From contig NZ_ATXB01000001.1 of assembly GCF_000421465.1 (NCBI RefSeq), forward strand, positions 2,449,001 through 2,513,000: 64,000 nucleotides of DNA. The letters run 5' to 3'. This document shows positions 22,829 to 35,133 of the stretch, piece after piece. The position numbers were made by a program, and so were the translations under genes. The notes beneath the pieces are model-generated. The model searched no databases and was not told where the DNA came from. It was given only the letters and a program-made list of their open reading frames with translations. Positions within the stretch are counted from its first letter, which is position 1; each line of letters begins with the position of its first letter. Source of the stretch: Methylohalobius crimeensis 10Ki. Lineage in GTDB: Bacteria > Pseudomonadota > Gammaproteobacteria > Methylococcales > Methylothermaceae.

Positions 22829-23400
22829 CCAGGGAGGGGGGCGAATAATCCCCTGATCCTCCACTCTTCGGTTGCGTGAACAAAGCAGGGCCCCTTCCCT
22901 CGGACCGGGTTGTGTTGTCCCAAGTCCTCGAACGGTAGTATGGACCCCTCCGACTTCCACGACGGCCCGGCACGACTTCGGCACTCGCCTTATACGCACC
23001 CGTTGGCGGTTCTGCCCCGCCACCGCCGCGGATCTCCCGCACTGCACTGGTTTTCTTCCGTTACCTGCCGCCCCTGCTACCCCGGGAGATCCGGTGGAAC
23101 GCTTCCGTTCTCTCATCCCATCGACAGCGGCCTTCCCCTTCTGACCACAGGGTCGGCATCTCCAACTAATTGACGAGGCTACCCGTAGGTTCGCTTGCGC
23201 TACGGCCGGCAACTTCGCCCCTCGGAAACTTACAACCCCCGATTGCTCGGACGCTGCTTCCAGGCGCTACAAAGGTGTACGGACAACTCCTTTCGCGGGA
23301 CTTTAACCCGCAAGAAAAACAGCCGGTTACGGCATACGGTCAAAGTAATATTTATTACCTTGATTTAAAATTATTACTATGACCCCAATTATTGAACACC

Positions 23401-27122: not shown

Positions 27123-28344
27123 TAGTAGACCTTCAATTTAATATTGCCTAATGTTAATGTGCTTTCTCAATGTTATCCAGCAACATGCTGAGAAGGCGTA
27201 TGAAGAAGAAATACATTGTCCGCCTGACGGCGGAGGAGCGCCAGAGCTTGGAAGCTTTGGTGCGCAAAGGCAAAACGGCAGCCTATCGACGCACCCACGC
27301 GCAAATACTGCTGTGGGCCGATGAGGGCGATCAAGGCCCGGGCCTGCTGGACAGCGAAGTGGCTGAGACTGTCGGGGTCAACGCACGCACGGTGTCGCGG
27401 TTGCGTCAACGCTGTGTAGAGGAAGGCCTCGATGCGGCCTTGGAGCGCAAGCGGCGTATGCGGGAAAAGCGGCGCGTCCTCGACGGTGATGGCGAGGCGC
27501 AGTTGGTGGCGCTGATGTGCAGTGAGCCGCCACCGGGGCAATCGCGCTGGACGTTGCATCTGTTGAGCGATCGACTGGTTGAGTTGGGTGTTGTGGAGTC
27601 GATTTCGCACGAATCGGTAAGACGCGTTTTAAAAAAACGCCTTTAAACCGTGGCGGAAAGCGATGTGGTGTATTCCGCCCAAACAGAATGCCGCGTTTGT
27701 GTGCGCGATGGAGCGCGTCCTGGAGGTTTACAAGCGCCCCTTCGATCCGGACTATCCGGTGGTGTGCATGGACGAAACCAGCGTGCAATGTGTGAGGGAA
27801 GTGCGACCTCGCGTGCCGGGCAAGCCCGGGCAAATCGAGCGCTACGATGTGGAGTACGAGCGCAACGGTGTCGCCCACCTGATTCAGTTTTATGCCCCGT
27901 TTAGGGGGTGGAGACGGATAGAGGTCGCAGACAATCATGCGGCGCCGCAATGGGCAGAGGGGGTTCGGGCGTTGGTGGAGAAAGACTTTCCGGATGCCCG
28001 GCGTATTACCCTGGTCATGGATAACTTAAGCACACATACGGGAGCTTCTTTGTATAAAGCATTTGAGCCACAGGTCGCACGCGCTCTGCTGGATAAACTG
28101 GAATTTGTGTATACACCAAAGCATGGCAGTTGGTTGAATATGGCGGAATGCGAATTCAGCGTGTTGTCGCGACAATGTCTTGATCGGCGGCTACCGGATA
28201 GGGAAACCGTGCGCAGAGAGGTCGAAGCCTGGGCGGCGGCACGCAACCAAGCTGCGGTGACCGTCGATTGGCGGTTTACGACTGAGGATGCCCGGATAAA
28301 GCTGAAACAGCTCTACCCGACAATATAAAATTGAAAGAGCACTA
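27123..28344 (+). mobile_element. IS630 family insertion sequence
   Basis: A 1218-bp element (27125-28342) inside a TA duplication (27123-27124 and 28343-28344); both junctions read CTAG. Terminal inverted repeats: left GTAGACCTTCAATTTAATAT, right (complement) GTGCTCTTTCAATTTTATAT; 18 of the first 24 bases agree. One transposase gene fills it. Size, target and transposase match IS630. Confidence 0.88.
27200..28328 (+). CDS. IS630 transposase, two frames joined at an A7 run
   Basis: Frame 1 (ATG 27200 after GAGAAGG, to 27646) carries the N-terminal helix-turn-helix domain (EVAETVGVNARTVSRLRQ). Frame 2 (from 27633 to 28328) carries the DDE catalytic part: CMDETSVQCV, VMDNLSTHTG and GSWLNMAECEFS. 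The switch lies in AAAAAAA at 27631-27637, where moving from VLKK to NAFKPWRKAMWCIPP restores the usual protein. It can be programmed frameshifting, known for IS630 relatives, or a disabling deletion. An ATG at 27170 offers a ten-codon longer start. Confidence 0.85.
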
Positions 28345-30544: not shown

Positions 30545-31258
30545 ATGCTCGCCAACCTTCTTGCCGTCGCCTTCGGCGGTGCCACAGGCGCCCTGCTGCG
30601 CTTTTCGATTTCCGGTGCCGTTTATCGCTGGCTGGGACGGGGATTTCCCCACGGCACCCTCGCCGCCAATCTAATCGGTTCGTTCCTGTTGGGGCTTTTG
30701 GCGGACCCCTTGCTGCAATTGCCGCCGTCGAGCTTTCCCTGGCGAGCGGCGGCGGCCACCGGGTTTCTGGGGGCGTTCACCACTTTTTCCACCTTCGCAC
30801 TGGAAACCGTTTATCTGATCGAGCAAGGGCGCATGCTGCGCGCGTTCGGCAATCTTTTGATCAGCATCGGGTTGGGACTTGCCGCCGCCTGGACCGGCTT
30901 TCTATGCGGGCGGGCGCTGTTGGTTGGAAACGGCCTCATTTCCTTGCCCGGGGTCGACTGGCCCTTGCCCTGGCTGCTGGGGCTTTTGGCCAACGGCTTG
31001 GTCGCTTTTATAGTGGGGTTGGCGATGGAGGCCGCCTTCGAACGGTGGCGTCCGGGTCCGGCTTATCGAACCAGTTGGAGCATTCTGTCAATCGGCGGTT
31101 TCGCCACTGTTTCCAGCTTGCATCTCCTGCAGGAACTCCTCCGCCAGGAAAATGCCTTCCACCAGATTCTGCCGTGGCTGGTGGGTGTCTTCGCGCTGAA
31201 TCTACTGATCTGTGCCGGCGGGGTGTGGGGAGGGTTCGGCACCGCCCGGCACTTGTGA
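30545..31258 (+). CDS. crcB: double-domain CrcB/Fluc fluoride channel (FEX-like fusion), 1
   Basis: A 237-residue protein, nearly twice the usual CrcB length of about 125. Residues 1-125 are a normal four-helix CrcB: GGATGALLRF (Arg19), GTLAANLIGSFLLG (Asn42) and GAFTTFSTFALE (Phe81 and Phe84). Residues 139-230 hold three helices like CrcB helices 2-4: LLGLLANGLVAF keeps Asn150, but the Phe-box equivalent GGFATVSSL has Val189 and Leu192. The first helix of the second half is absent, so the second half should insert upside down relative to the first. Fluoride export is known for CrcB; the single-chain arrangement is inferred. Confidence 0.88.
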   Translation: MLANLLAVAFGGATGALLRFSISGAVYRWLGRGFPHGTLAANLIGSFLLGLLADPLLQLPPSSFPWRAAAATGFLGAFTTFSTFALETVYLIEQGRMLRAFGNLLISIGLGLAAAWTGFLCGRALLVGNGLISLPGVDWPLPWLLGLLANGLVAFIVGLAMEAAFERWRPGPAYRTSWSILSIGGFATVSSLHLLQELLRQENAFHQILPWLVGVFALNLLICAGGVWGGFGTARHL

Positions 31259-31564
31259 CGGAGGCTTGATAGCCGGCCAAACTAAAATATCCTCCAATCC
31301 GAGACGGCTTTGCAGCTTGCCGATCGCTGCTTCGACCCGTTTCTCTTCGCCGAAAAACTCCACCATCAGCGGCAACCGCAAGGACAAGGTCAACAGGGAC
31401 GAGGTGTGCACTTCCCGCCCGCCCGCGGTTCCGGCGACGGCCCGAAAAGCGTGTACGTTGGCGATTCCCTCCTCCTCGTGGATAATTTGGAGGAGCTCGT
31501 CCAGATGATCGTGCCCCTCCAGTACATAAACGCGCGCCACCCAAACTTGTTGGCCTTTCACCAT
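31202..31564 (-). CDS. DUF190 family protein
   Basis: A 120-residue soluble protein of the DUF190 family, small alpha/beta proteins related to PII-like folds (VARVYVLEGHDHLDELLQII, HAFRAVAGTAG, LPLMVEFFGEEKRVEAAIGKL). DUF190 genes often neighbour crcB. It starts seven bases inside the second crcB and its 3' end overlaps crcB 1 tail to tail by 57 bases. A regulatory role for the channels is plausible but unproven. Confidence 0.85.
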   Translation of the reverse strand: MVKGQQVWVARVYVLEGHDHLDELLQIIHEEEGIANVHAFRAVAGTAGGREVHTSSLLTLSLRLPLMVEFFGEEKRVEAAIGKLQSRLGLEDILVWPAIKPPSQVPGGAEPSPHPAGTDQ

Positions 31565-32265
31565 AGCTCACCTCCCCAGAATCCAAGCCAAATACCCGCA
31601 AGACAGACCATCGCATTACCGAGCAGCAACCCCACCATCCAGCGGCCGTGATGTTTTAGTTCTAACGCCTCTTCGTGCAGAAATAAAGCCAGATAAAGGC
31701 TGGAAAAAGTCACGAAACCGCCCACCAAAAGTACAGTCAACACCGCTCTGAGCCGATCGGACACGGGCGACCATTCCACCAGAAACGTCAAAAAGAAACC
31801 GATCAGGACCGCGATGAGAAAGTTAATCAATAGCCAGCCATAAGGCACCGGCCACCTCGACCAATAAATAATGCCCCGGGAAGGATAAAACAAGCTGCGC
31901 CCGCTGAGCAGCCCCAGAAACGCCACTCCCGTGCAGAGACCCGCGCTGAGACCGATATTCCCCAGGGCCGCGGGCCATGCGCCTTGTTGGAGAAGGGCGA
32001 GGGTTTCCACCGAAAAGGTGGAAAAAGTGGTCAGAGAACCGAACAGCCCCACCAGTACACCGGCCCGGAATTCCGTCGCCACCGCGACCCGTTCCAACAG
32101 CAGCGCCTCGCTCATCAAGCCGATGAGATAAGAACCCAGGACATTGACGACGAGGGTGCCGTAGGGGAAGCCGGGGCCCAGCCAAGCGGATACGCCACTG
32201 GAAATAAAAAAACGCAGCAACGCACCCACCGCCCCGCCGAAGGCAATGGCGAAAATCTGAATCAT
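31558..32265 (-). CDS. crcB: double-domain CrcB/Fluc fluoride channel (FEX-like fusion), 2
   Basis: A 235-residue protein with the same two-part plan as the other crcB. First half: GGAVGALLRF (Arg18), GTLVVNVLGSYLIG (Asn41), GSLTTFSTFSVE (Phe81, Phe84). Second half, three helices: WLLINFLIAVLIGF (Asn148), VGGFVTFSSLYLA (Phe187 kept, Leu190 instead of Phe) and VGLLLGNAMVCLAGIWLGF. ATG 32265 is used; the frame extends to a TTG at 32286. It follows the P-type ATPase by 28 bases and overlaps DUF190, so ATPase-crcB-DUF190 look like one operon. No fluoride riboswitch was recognised upstream. Confidence 0.88.
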   Translation of the reverse strand: MIQIFAIAFGGAVGALLRFFISSGVSAWLGPGFPYGTLVVNVLGSYLIGLMSEALLLERVAVATEFRAGVLVGLFGSLTTFSTFSVETLALLQQGAWPAALGNIGLSAGLCTGVAFLGLLSGRSLFYPSRGIIYWSRWPVPYGWLLINFLIAVLIGFFLTFLVEWSPVSDRLRAVLTVLLVGGFVTFSSLYLALFLHEEALELKHHGRWMVGLLLGNAMVCLAGIWLGFWGGELW

Positions 32266-32293: not shown

Positions 32294-35047
32294 TCATGGA
32301 TGCGATACGGCCCTGCCGGTACGGCGGCGCCCCGCCCGATAAAACAATCGAACCATGAATTTTTCCACCTCCACCAGCACGAAGACCGACATGGAGGCGG
32401 CCACGATCACCTGCCAATGCCGCGCGTCGATCGCCACGGTTCCGAACAGGAACTGCATGGGCGGCAAATAGGTAAATCCCAGCTGGAAGATCACCAGCAA
32501 AACAATGCTCAACCAAGTGTAGGGATTGCCGAACAATCCCTTGAGATTCAGCACCGAATCGGTCAAGTAACGGCAGTTGAGCACATAGAAGATTTCGAAC
32601 ATCACCAAGGTATTGACGGCGACGGTTCGGGCGGCTTCGATCGGCGTCCCGAAGGAACGTTCCCAGAGATACAGTCCGAAGGTCCCCGCGACGATCAGCA
32701 AGGACACGAACAGGATGCGCCAGATCAGAAACTTGGACAGCAATGCTTCGTCGGAGCGCCGCGGAGGTCGCTGCATGATACGCTTCTCCGGGGGTTCGAA
32801 GGCCAGGGTGAGCGCCAGGGTAACGGCGGTGATCATGTTCACCCACAGAATCTGCACCGGGGTAATGGGCAGCATCCGTTCCATGGCAATGGCGGCGACG
32901 ATGGTCATGGCTTCGCCGCCGTTGGTCGGCAAAATGAAAACGATCGACTTTTTCAGGTTGTCGTAGACCGCCCTTCCCTCCTCCACGGCATGAGCGATGG
33001 AGGCAAAGTTGTCGTCCGCGAGCACCATTTCCGCCGATTCCTTGGCCACTTCGGTGCCTTTTACGCCCATGGCGATGCCCACTTCGGCCCGTTTCAGCGC
33101 CGGAGCATCGTTCACCCCGTCGCCGGTCATGGCGACCACCTGACCGTCGGCCTGGAGGCTTTTCACCAGCCTCAGCTTATTCTCCGGACTGGTGCGGGCG
33201 AAAACGTCCGTCTCACGAAGCATTTCGGTCAAGGCCGACTCGTCCAGGCGATCCAAATCCTCGCCCCGCAAGACCGTCTCCCCATTCCCGATACGCATCT
33301 GCCGGGCGATGGCCACCGCGGTGGCAGCGTGATCGCCGGTGATCATCTTGATCCGGATACCCGCCCCTTGGCATTGGCGGACGGCTTCGATCGCCTCGGC
33401 GCGCGGGGGATCGATCATGCCTACGATGCCCAGCAGGGTCAGACCGCTCTCCACATCGTCGAACGCCAATTGACGCCGATCGGTCGGGACGACTTTAAAG
33501 GCAATGGCCAAGAGCCGCTGGCCGCGACCGGCCATGGTATCCATCACTCGGTGCCAATAATCCAAGTGAATGGGTTCATCCTCACCATAGCGCCGCTGCC
33601 AGCGACACATGGCGAGAATTCGCTCGGGCGCCCCCTTGACGAACACGAAGGCGTGACCGTCGTGATCGTGATGGAGGGTGGCCATGAATCGGTGTTCCGA
33701 TTCGAACGGAATGGTATCGGTCCGGGGAATTTCCTTGCGTTCGAAATCCAGCTCGAGCCCCGCTTTCCGCGCCAGCGTCAATAAGGCGCCTTCGGTGGGG
33801 TCGCCGTGAATGATCCATTGCTCGCCATTTTTCTCCATCTCGGCGTTGTTGCATAGCGCGGCCGCCCGGGCCAGCTCGCAAAGCCCCGGATAGAGGTCCA
33901 GGGAAACCGTCTCACCCTGCAGCCTGAAATCGCCATGGGGATCGTAGCCCCCATCCTTCACATCGAACAATAGATCGTTGACGGCGACGTTGGTCACGGT
34001 CATCTCGTTGCGGGTCAAGGTGCCGGTCTTGTCGGAACAAATCACCGTCACCGCGCCCAGGGTTTCCACCGCGGGCAAACGCCGGATGATGGCGTTGCGT
34101 CGGGCCATGCGTTGCACCCCGATGGCCAAGGTGATGGTCATGATCGCGGGCAACCCTTCCGGAATCGCCGCCACCGCAAGTCCCACCGCGGACATGAACA
34201 AATCCTTGAGGGAGGAATGCTGAATCATCCAACCGTAGGCGAAAGTCGCCGAAGCAATGGCGACGATGGCCGCGGTCAGCCAGCGACTGAAACGGGTCAT
34301 CTGGCGCAAAAGCGGGGTGGTCAAATGAGGCACCTTGCTCAGCAAGGCACTGATGCGACCGATTTCGGTATCGTCGCCGATGGCCACCACCACCCCGAGG
34401 GCCGTTCCGTAAGTCACCAGGGTGCCCGAATAAACCATGCCGACGCGATCTCCCAGCGGGGCGTGGGCGGTGACTGCATCGCAGCTTTTGTCCACCGGCA
34501 CCGATTCGCCGGTCAACATGGACTCGTCCACGCGGAGATTTTTTACTTGAAGCAGGCGCAGATCGGCGGGCACCTTGTCGCCGCTTTCCAGCGTCACCAG
34601 ATCTCCCGGCACCAGCTCTTCGGCAGGAACCAGAAAATTCCGACCGTCGCGGCGCACCATGGCCTTGTGGGAAAGCAGGTTGCGAATGGCATCCAGGGCC
34701 TTTTCCGCCTTGCCTTCCTGAATGAAGCCGATGGCGGCGTTGATCAAGACGACGCCGAGAATGACGCCGCTGTCGATCCAATGCTCGATGGCGGCGGTCA
34801 CCCCGGCCGCCACCAGCAGGACGTAGATCAGGAGATCGTGGAACTGGGCGAAAAAGCGCCGGATCGGCCCGCGCCGGGCAGTGGGGGTCAGGCGGTTTTC
34901 CCCGTATCGCTTGCGCCTTCTTTCGACTTCCGGGGCGGACAAACCGGCATCGGAAACTCGCAACAAATCGCAGACTTTGTCGGCGGAAAGCGCATGCCAT
35001 TGGGGCGCATCCGAACGCGCTTGCTTGGATGGTTTTCTCACTCCCAT
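32294..35047 (-). CDS. cation-transporting P-type ATPase (P2A-like)
   Basis: A 917-residue P-type ATPase: cation_N domain (LLRVSDAGLSAPEVERRRKR), TGES loop, phosphorylation site ICSDKTGTLTRNEM, KGAPE, and GDGVNDAPALKRAEVG. Compared with Ca2+ ATPases, AAIPEGLPA (helix 4) and TNGGEA (helix 5) keep the ligand Glu and Asn, but helix 6 reads WVNMITAVTLAL, with Ala where SERCA has Asp800, so Ca2+ binding cannot be assumed. ATG 35047 is used, but AGGAGG is only one base away; GTG 35041 has seven-base spacing and may be the true start. Confidence 0.9.
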   Translation of the reverse strand: MGVRKPSKQARSDAPQWHALSADKVCDLLRVSDAGLSAPEVERRRKRYGENRLTPTARRGPIRRFFAQFHDLLIYVLLVAAGVTAAIEHWIDSGVILGVVLINAAIGFIQEGKAEKALDAIRNLLSHKAMVRRDGRNFLVPAEELVPGDLVTLESGDKVPADLRLLQVKNLRVDESMLTGESVPVDKSCDAVTAHAPLGDRVGMVYSGTLVTYGTALGVVVAIGDDTEIGRISALLSKVPHLTTPLLRQMTRFSRWLTAAIVAIASATFAYGWMIQHSSLKDLFMSAVGLAVAAIPEGLPAIMTITLAIGVQRMARRNAIIRRLPAVETLGAVTVICSDKTGTLTRNEMTVTNVAVNDLLFDVKDGGYDPHGDFRLQGETVSLDLYPGLCELARAAALCNNAEMEKNGEQWIIHGDPTEGALLTLARKAGLELDFERKEIPRTDTIPFESEHRFMATLHHDHDGHAFVFVKGAPERILAMCRWQRRYGEDEPIHLDYWHRVMDTMAGRGQRLLAIAFKVVPTDRRQLAFDDVESGLTLLGIVGMIDPPRAEAIEAVRQCQGAGIRIKMITGDHAATAVAIARQMRIGNGETVLRGEDLDRLDESALTEMLRETDVFARTSPENKLRLVKSLQADGQVVAMTGDGVNDAPALKRAEVGIAMGVKGTEVAKESAEMVLADDNFASIAHAVEEGRAVYDNLKKSIVFILPTNGGEAMTIVAAIAMERMLPITPVQILWVNMITAVTLALTLAFEPPEKRIMQRPPRRSDEALLSKFLIWRILFVSLLIVAGTFGLYLWERSFGTPIEAARTVAVNTLVMFEIFYVLNCRYLTDSVLNLKGLFGNPYTWLSIVLLVIFQLGFTYLPPMQFLFGTVAIDARHWQVIVAASMSVFVLVEVEKFMVRLFYRAGRRRTGRAVSHP

Positions 35048-35133
35048 GCCTCCTGATGGTCCTCCCGGCAAACCGCCGCGTCAGACTCCCCGACCAGGCG
35101 ATCTGGTTTACTAACAACCGTTAAGAGTTGGCG

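Follow-up and report, generated by a model that had tools for sequence, protein, structure and literature searches.

How can two copies of an even-helix, dual-topology membrane protein be joined in one chain, when such a fusion requires a means of inverting the second copy? Such a protein, EmrE, has been called 'evolutionarily frustrated' (PMC3962082), and the capture of a linker helix by FEX has been termed 'evolutionary gymnastics' (PMC3755343), the same source describing prokaryotic Flucs as proteins of 120–130 residues encoded by single genes or gene pairs. Two genes, here termed A and B, raise this question in the window analysed, a stretch of 64,000 nucleotides from Methylohalobius crimeensis 10Ki. 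Their products are fused CrcB/Fluc proteins, predicted fluoride channels, each with a full four-TM domain followed by TM2–TM4 of a second copy. The order Methylococcales shows a simpler route to inversion, the deletion of one helix, and its members display the stages side by side: a single gene, a fused gene, its duplication into an oppositely biased pair, a decaying second half, and a second half that is gone. With several stages in one order, a textbook account of how inverted repeats arise becomes testable in one protein family. It has to be asked, then, whether the fusion made an internal dimer or whether an old dimer persisted with a passenger.

Gene A is an ORF of 237 aa on the plus strand (30545–31258) and gene B one of 235 aa on the minus strand (31558–32265). 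The two are convergent, and between them, on the strand of B, lies a DUF190 (COG1993) gene (31202–31564, minus strand; Pfam PF02641, E 1.2e-11), whose 3' end runs 57 bases into the 3' end of A and whose start overlaps the stop of B by 7. The Pfam CRCB family (PF02537, cut-off 32.9) matches residues 6–119 in the N-half of both A (whole-protein E 1.4e-30, 106.1 bits) and B (E 1.7e-31, 109 bits), and each protein has a second, weaker CrcB stretch in the same search; moreover, the second half of B was matched separately in the genome search, over PF02537 profile positions 21–103. A and B are the sole CrcB matches in the genome at E 0.001 in the profile search. In A, a complete four-TM CrcB/Fluc domain occupies residues 1–122 (30545–30910) and contains N42, F81 and F84 according to PF02537, the AlphaFold2 helices and alignments, while the junction and C-half (residues 123–237 plus stop; 30911–31258) hold TM2'–TM4' of a second CrcB copy according to the last two. 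In B, PF02537 and a structural match to Fluc chains place the complete domain in residues 1–122 (31900–32265, minus strand), with N41, F81 and F84, and PF02537, hhalign and AlphaFold2 place TM2'–TM4' in the junction and C-half (residues 123–235 plus stop; 31558–31899, minus strand). In the alignments, the pore Asn is retained in both halves (N42 and N150 in A, N41 and N148 in B) and the Phe box is intact only in the first, both as the preliminary description had it; the second half has V189/L192 in A, with H193 at the position of S84 in Fluc-Ec2, and F187/L190 in B, with Y191.

That the two halves are copies of one another was clear from profile–profile comparison, since hhalign aligned the N-half (residues 1–122) with the C-half (118–235) over 110 columns with a probability of 99.7 and an E of 1.5e-24. 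The N-half ends in 'GLxxGRxL', which is also the C-terminus of single CrcB proteins in the order, and runs downstream into a stretch similar to the end of TM1 and loop 1; thus, the second copy seems to have been joined without its start and most of its TM1. Homology in the C-half appears to start within the closing stretch of TM1 and in loop 1, where the few residues involved are only suggestive. AlphaFold2, run with a 61-row alignment for both proteins, gave 4+3 membrane helices, seven in total, in A and in B, and not the eight or nine that had been set down beforehand as evidence against the proposal. The helices of B span residues 2–29, 35–57, 64–78/82–93, 97–126, 142–165, 170–198 and 203–234 (pLDDT 81.2, pTM 0.74); A follows the same pattern, with C-half helices at 142–168, 172–201 and 205–236 (pLDDT 80.6, pTM 0.56). 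TM3 is broken at residues 79–81 in the N-half of both models, as in Fluc, and is an unbroken helix in the C-half. The parity of seven helices would place the second half upside down relative to the first. Thus, the arrangement originally claimed, in which a complete CrcB half is followed by helices 2–4 of a second, is confirmed by Pfam, hhalign and the 4+3 helices of the models, and the predicted topology likewise agrees with a second half that lacks TM1, has no linker helix before it and is inverted. When the B model was compared with a chain library by means of Foldseek and VIA-align, its N-half (model residues 1–128) matched solved Flucs with Z of 16.1–17.5 over 121–125 residues, whereas rows starting in its C-half had Z under 8, not above background. 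The resemblance of residues 139–230 to CrcB stands at the level of sequence (PF02537 on B, and hhalign), whereas the clear structural matches of the B model to Fluc cover the N-half only.

The architecture resembles that of FEX in that each chain carries two CrcB copies, the second of them inverted, and in that some residues of the Phe box have been lost. However, FEX is described as two four-TM halves plus a linker helix, with one Phe per half and both lining the same pore (PMC5417652), whereas here there are 4+3 helices, no linker helix, no TM1 in the second half, and both Phe residues in the N-half. The pattern of FEX, ooFooX/ooXooF, is not the one found: among 117 distinct fused sequences, the N-half is F/F in 117/117 and the C-half L/L in 84/117. 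The proposal that the design differs from FEX is thereby upheld, and the likening to 'FEX where one pore is degenerate' is not supported. In the same 117 sequences, the TM2 Asn of the N-half is present in all (117/117) and that of the C-half in 103, while the C-half has both Phe residues in none, the first in 12 and the second in one, a row of the f4 group whose alignment is unsure.

In Fluc, both subunits contribute to each pore, one giving Phe1 and the other Phe2 (PMC4969038, PMC5417652). Since both Phe residues of the fused chains lie in the N-half, pairing of the N-half with the C-half of its own chain would in most cases leave each pore with a single Phe: a complete pair would be available in at most 13 of the 117 sequences, and in neither pore in the other 104. 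In Fluc-Ec2, Ile at either Phe site abolishes transport, as does Leu in the same survey, and among the substitutions reported at these sites all abolish activity except Met at the first; the same source mentions that natural Flucs are sometimes without Phe, the Mycobacterium tuberculosis pair lacking Phe2 in both subunits (PMC5636608). On a poorly resolved tree, Phe1 of the C-half shows at least 7 changes among 60 rows, and two B orthologs that agree at 226 of 239 residues differ at this site, one having F and the other L, so that it looks dispensable.

The charge of the loops points in the same direction. Bias was computed as loop K+R on the N-terminal side minus that on the other side, the loops being set by the seven-helix topology. 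It lies between −2 and +1 in all 109 distinct fused sequences outside the A and B copies, and in the four two-copy genomes found outside the named-locus set described below the A/B values are −5/+5 in that of the window, −8/+3 in G001, −4/+3 in G004 and −4/+3 in G007. When loop borders were drawn at random, every A kept its negative and every B its positive sign in 497 of 500 trials, and in all 500 the A and B copies were separated by the median of the remaining sequences. The tilt of A is confined to the N-half (−3 to −5 versus −1 to +1 in the others), its C-half being ordinary at −1 to −3, whereas that of B lies mostly in the C-half (+2 to +3 versus −3 to +1 in the others), its N-half being barely shifted at +1 or +2; the C-half shift of B has the sign predicted by seven-helix parity, and the C-half of A is unshifted. 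This pattern suggests that A and B settled in opposite membrane orientations and hence work as a pair and not singly. Ordinary Flucs occur as balanced singletons or as conversely biased twins, which Stockbridge et al. read as antiparallel assembly (PMC3755343), and the simplest explanation for the same pattern in the fused proteins would be that these chains, too, still assemble as antiparallel pairs. Like heterodimeric Fluc twins of the La1/La2 type, A and B are paralogs with opposite K/R bias, in 4/4 of the two-copy genomes found, but here each twin has seven helices and is itself a fusion, and its gene faces that of its partner across DUF190 instead of following it in tandem. The A/B split goes back to a single duplication within one genus, and the near-identity of G004 and G007 (223/230 residues in A, 226/239 in B) reduces the charge evidence to about three lineages and one event. 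Balanced charge in the remaining sequences, moreover, could be an inheritance from the four-TM ancestor with no present need for it.

The C-half has had different fates across the order, as seen in dN/dS values of the two halves (NG86 medians over pairs with dS of 0.1–1.5 in both halves). In named rows of the f8 type, meaning the Methylobacter/Methylomonas group, named Methylomonadaceae in GTDB, dN/dS was 0.058 for the N-half and 0.103 for the C-half (138 usable pairs of 75 sequences, with the C-half higher in 117). The corresponding values were 0.234 and 0.767 in f4-like rows (18 pairs of 11 sequences, C-half higher in 17) and 0.311 and 0.580 in f1 rows, including the A and B copies (24 pairs of 14 sequences, C-half higher in 23). 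Several C-halves of f4 lack both the Asn and the Phe box. Furthermore, in the same group, one protein of 133 aa (L104) is without a C-half and another of 160 aa (L108) has a remnant of it, both falling in a clade of fused sequences in a quick tree (SH-aLRT 94); the N-half there presumably works without a C-half. Purifying selection acts on the C-half across most of the order and is much weaker in one family, and the C-half has apparently been lost once and largely deleted once. In f8-type proteins it has a conserved signature of its own, L-S-[SG]-L-Y, and therefore does something; support of packing, formation of a C:C pair or modification of the pore are candidates for its role.

The reading that explains most of these data, to which a probability of about 0.52 is given, is that two fused chains pair in antiparallel fashion, N-half to N-half, as a homodimer elsewhere and as an A:B heterodimer here, with the C-half as an accessory. 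The conducting unit would be an antiparallel pair of fused chains in which N-half lies on N-half, and this pairing would yield the usual four-Phe, double-barrelled Fluc pore. In single-copy species, it would be a dual-topology homodimer, and in the genome of the window and three relatives a heterodimer of the diverged copies A, with its N-terminus predicted out, and B, with its N-terminus predicted in. The C-half would be an appended accessory domain that no longer gives a complete Phe box. The N-half shares with Fluc-Bpe and Fluc-Ec2 its fold, the Asn, both Phe residues and, outside the A and B copies, a balanced loop charge, the difference being the three-helix second copy fused on. However, an idle appendage would not explain the conservation of the f8-type C-half (0.103 versus 0.058, with Asn and Tyr each in 103/117), and B alone of the two window proteins retains a complete Phe pair for an internal pore. 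With somewhat less assurance, a little short of even odds, it can be proposed that dual topology outlived the fusion, the seven-helix protein inserting both ways and pairing with another chain, its duplicates being fixed in opposite orientations, and the C-halves perhaps forming a degenerate C:C pair. The fused CrcB resembles fused dual-topology proteins of the DUF606 type, as a two-domain fusion related to dual-topology ancestors; whereas those fusions are described as creating an antiparallel topology (PMC3962082), the fused CrcB is still charge-balanced and has itself been split into an oppositely biased pair.

The main competitor is the internal antiparallel dimer of the preliminary description, in which the N-half and C-half of the same chain would form a seven-helix counterpart of FEX and one pore, that of TM2/TM4 of the N-half, would conduct. 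The inversion of the C-half that it calls for is predicted by seven-helix parity, and 12 of the 117 sequences, B among them, keep F84 in the N-half and F187 in the C-half and thus a complete N-pore; the TM2 Asn in most C-halves and the conservation of f8-type C-halves also suit it. Nevertheless, in 104/117 sequences neither pore would have a complete Phe pair, and yet the Phe pair of the N-half never drifts, whereas FEX has lost the Phe residues of its dead pore. The internal dimer also leaves the opposite charge bias of A and B without explanation, and it sits badly with the f4-like C-halves, which are often without Asn and box and show the dN/dS of 0.767 against 0.234 in 18 usable pairs. Both the charge pattern and the counts of Phe-box residues place it second, and it is regarded as unlikely in general, although possible above all for B. 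The inverted second half of that description is kept, whereas its N:C pairing fits the Phe counts and the K/R pattern less well, and B alone of the pair is in keeping with it (F84 with F187).

A variant of the internal dimer would have altered chemistry. The C-half residue equivalent to Ec2 S84, a helical turn further on than the lost first Phe (residue 191 of B; 31693–31695), is Tyr in 103/117 sequences, Trp in 4 and His in 2; its N-half counterpart is Ser in 57 and Ala in 4 of the 61 alignment rows. This Tyr could provide the missing ring edge, the N-pore conducting with F84 and Y191. However, Tyr at the first Phe site itself is reported as inactive in Ec2 (PMC5636608), the C-half Tyr is also found where Phe1 is kept, and the A/B charge split would again be unexplained, which leaves this variant quite improbable. 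It is just as improbable that the fused proteins no longer conduct fluoride and have another role, or that A and B are independent transporters. Such readings could draw on the fact that no fluoride riboswitch was found in the 64-kb window at the Rfam gathering threshold, but the N-half keeps its box Phe pair and TM2 Asn in every sequence, the genome is without any other CrcB, and many relatives adjoin DUF190 and serS in the manner of ordinary crcB. Pairing between chains explains more of the data than the internal dimer.

The CrcB fusion is wider than the window and occurs in six family-level groups of the methanotroph order Methylococcales. At E 1e-10, the fused profile is matched by 276 of the 301 genomes of the order, a count that includes genomes with single genes; among the matches listed (to about E 4e-87), all start by model position 14 and reach at least position 222 of the 236. 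The groups in which fused genes were read are f1–f5 and f8; for two other groups of the order (f6 and f7), the rows read show single genes of 123–124 aa. When 84,980 species genomes were scanned for a C-half motif, 219 stretches came up, of which 103 were relatives and 80 were kept, these named loci belonging to Methylobacter, Methylomonas, Methyloprofundus, Crenothrix, Methylovulum, Methylomicrobium, Methylococcaceae or Methylococcales bacteria, Bathymodiolus methanotroph symbionts, or unclassified organisms. In 77 of the 80, the fused protein has 222–242 aa (one of the 77 being cut at its C-end), and the other three are cut by contig ends; the fusion is thus beyond chance. Some fused sequences, such as L098 (G013) and L140, are common to the G-coded genomes and the named loci, and the assignment of the order as Methylococcales is based on these and on the names of the loci.

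Outside the order, a class sample of 369 genomes gave matches that, among those listed, all end by model position 163, and the rows reaching past about 130 are mostly read through stops. In a phylum sample of 398 genomes, including that of the window, the C-half profile at E 1e-15 found only the window genome and an ORF of ordinary length (G673, 154 aa), this threshold separating imperfectly, with singles scoring up to 82 bits and decayed C-halves down to 4 bits; both searches would miss unrelated fusions. Within the samples searched, the fused CrcB is thus confined to one bacterial order, in agreement with the idea of a design separate from that of FEX. It is a real variant of a known channel family, and no earlier description of a bacterial CrcB fusion was found in the open-access literature.

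As for its origin, a quick N-half tree, built from 108 rows and few columns, unites the fused rows in a single group (SH-aLRT 80), the rows of 133 and 160 aa included, and the single or fused state changes at least three times on the tree, which fits one gain and two losses. serS lies within 58 and DUF190 within 31 of the 80 named loci, as judged from the fetched stretches, and both genes recur next to single and fused crcB in the G-coded genomes; it is therefore likely that the native locus is where the fusion took place. The DUF190 protein adjoins crcB in many loci, in the order crcB-DUF190-serS, and is a possible cytosolic partner of the channel. G001, G004 and G007 show the same layout, their DUF190 gene being flanked by A and B, on the same strand as B and faced by A; in G007, one extra ORF separates DUF190 from B. 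Of the two copies, B looks like the positional one. A gene for a cation-transporting P-type ATPase (Pfam E1-E2_ATPase and Cation_ATPase_C; 32294–35071) is found directly upstream of B on the same strand in the window; no such gene is among the ORFs listed next to B in either G001 or G007.

Two intact fused copies were seen in none of the 8 other genomes with two matches, although G514 and G653 may have a second copy. Two of these 8, G438 (L196, L204) and G442 (L198, L209), both of f8, combine one intact fused crcB of the f4-like kind, its C-half degenerate, with a native copy that is broken or partial, as if a transferred gene had taken the place of the native one; the rest have fragments, split frames or contig-end pieces. 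L093 (G010, f2) is f4-like too. In G656 (L199/L211) and G623 (L200/L210), the fused crcB is apparently in two frames, split at or near the junction, which may reflect either an assembly error, one of them having an X run, or a real return to a short protein. Elsewhere in the window, a group II intron match (Rfam RF02005, 71 bits) lies at 23070–23304 on the minus strand, and an ORF of 221 aa at 27663–28328, just upstream of alpha/beta hydrolase and GH57 genes, presumably encodes a protein resembling an IS630-type transposase.
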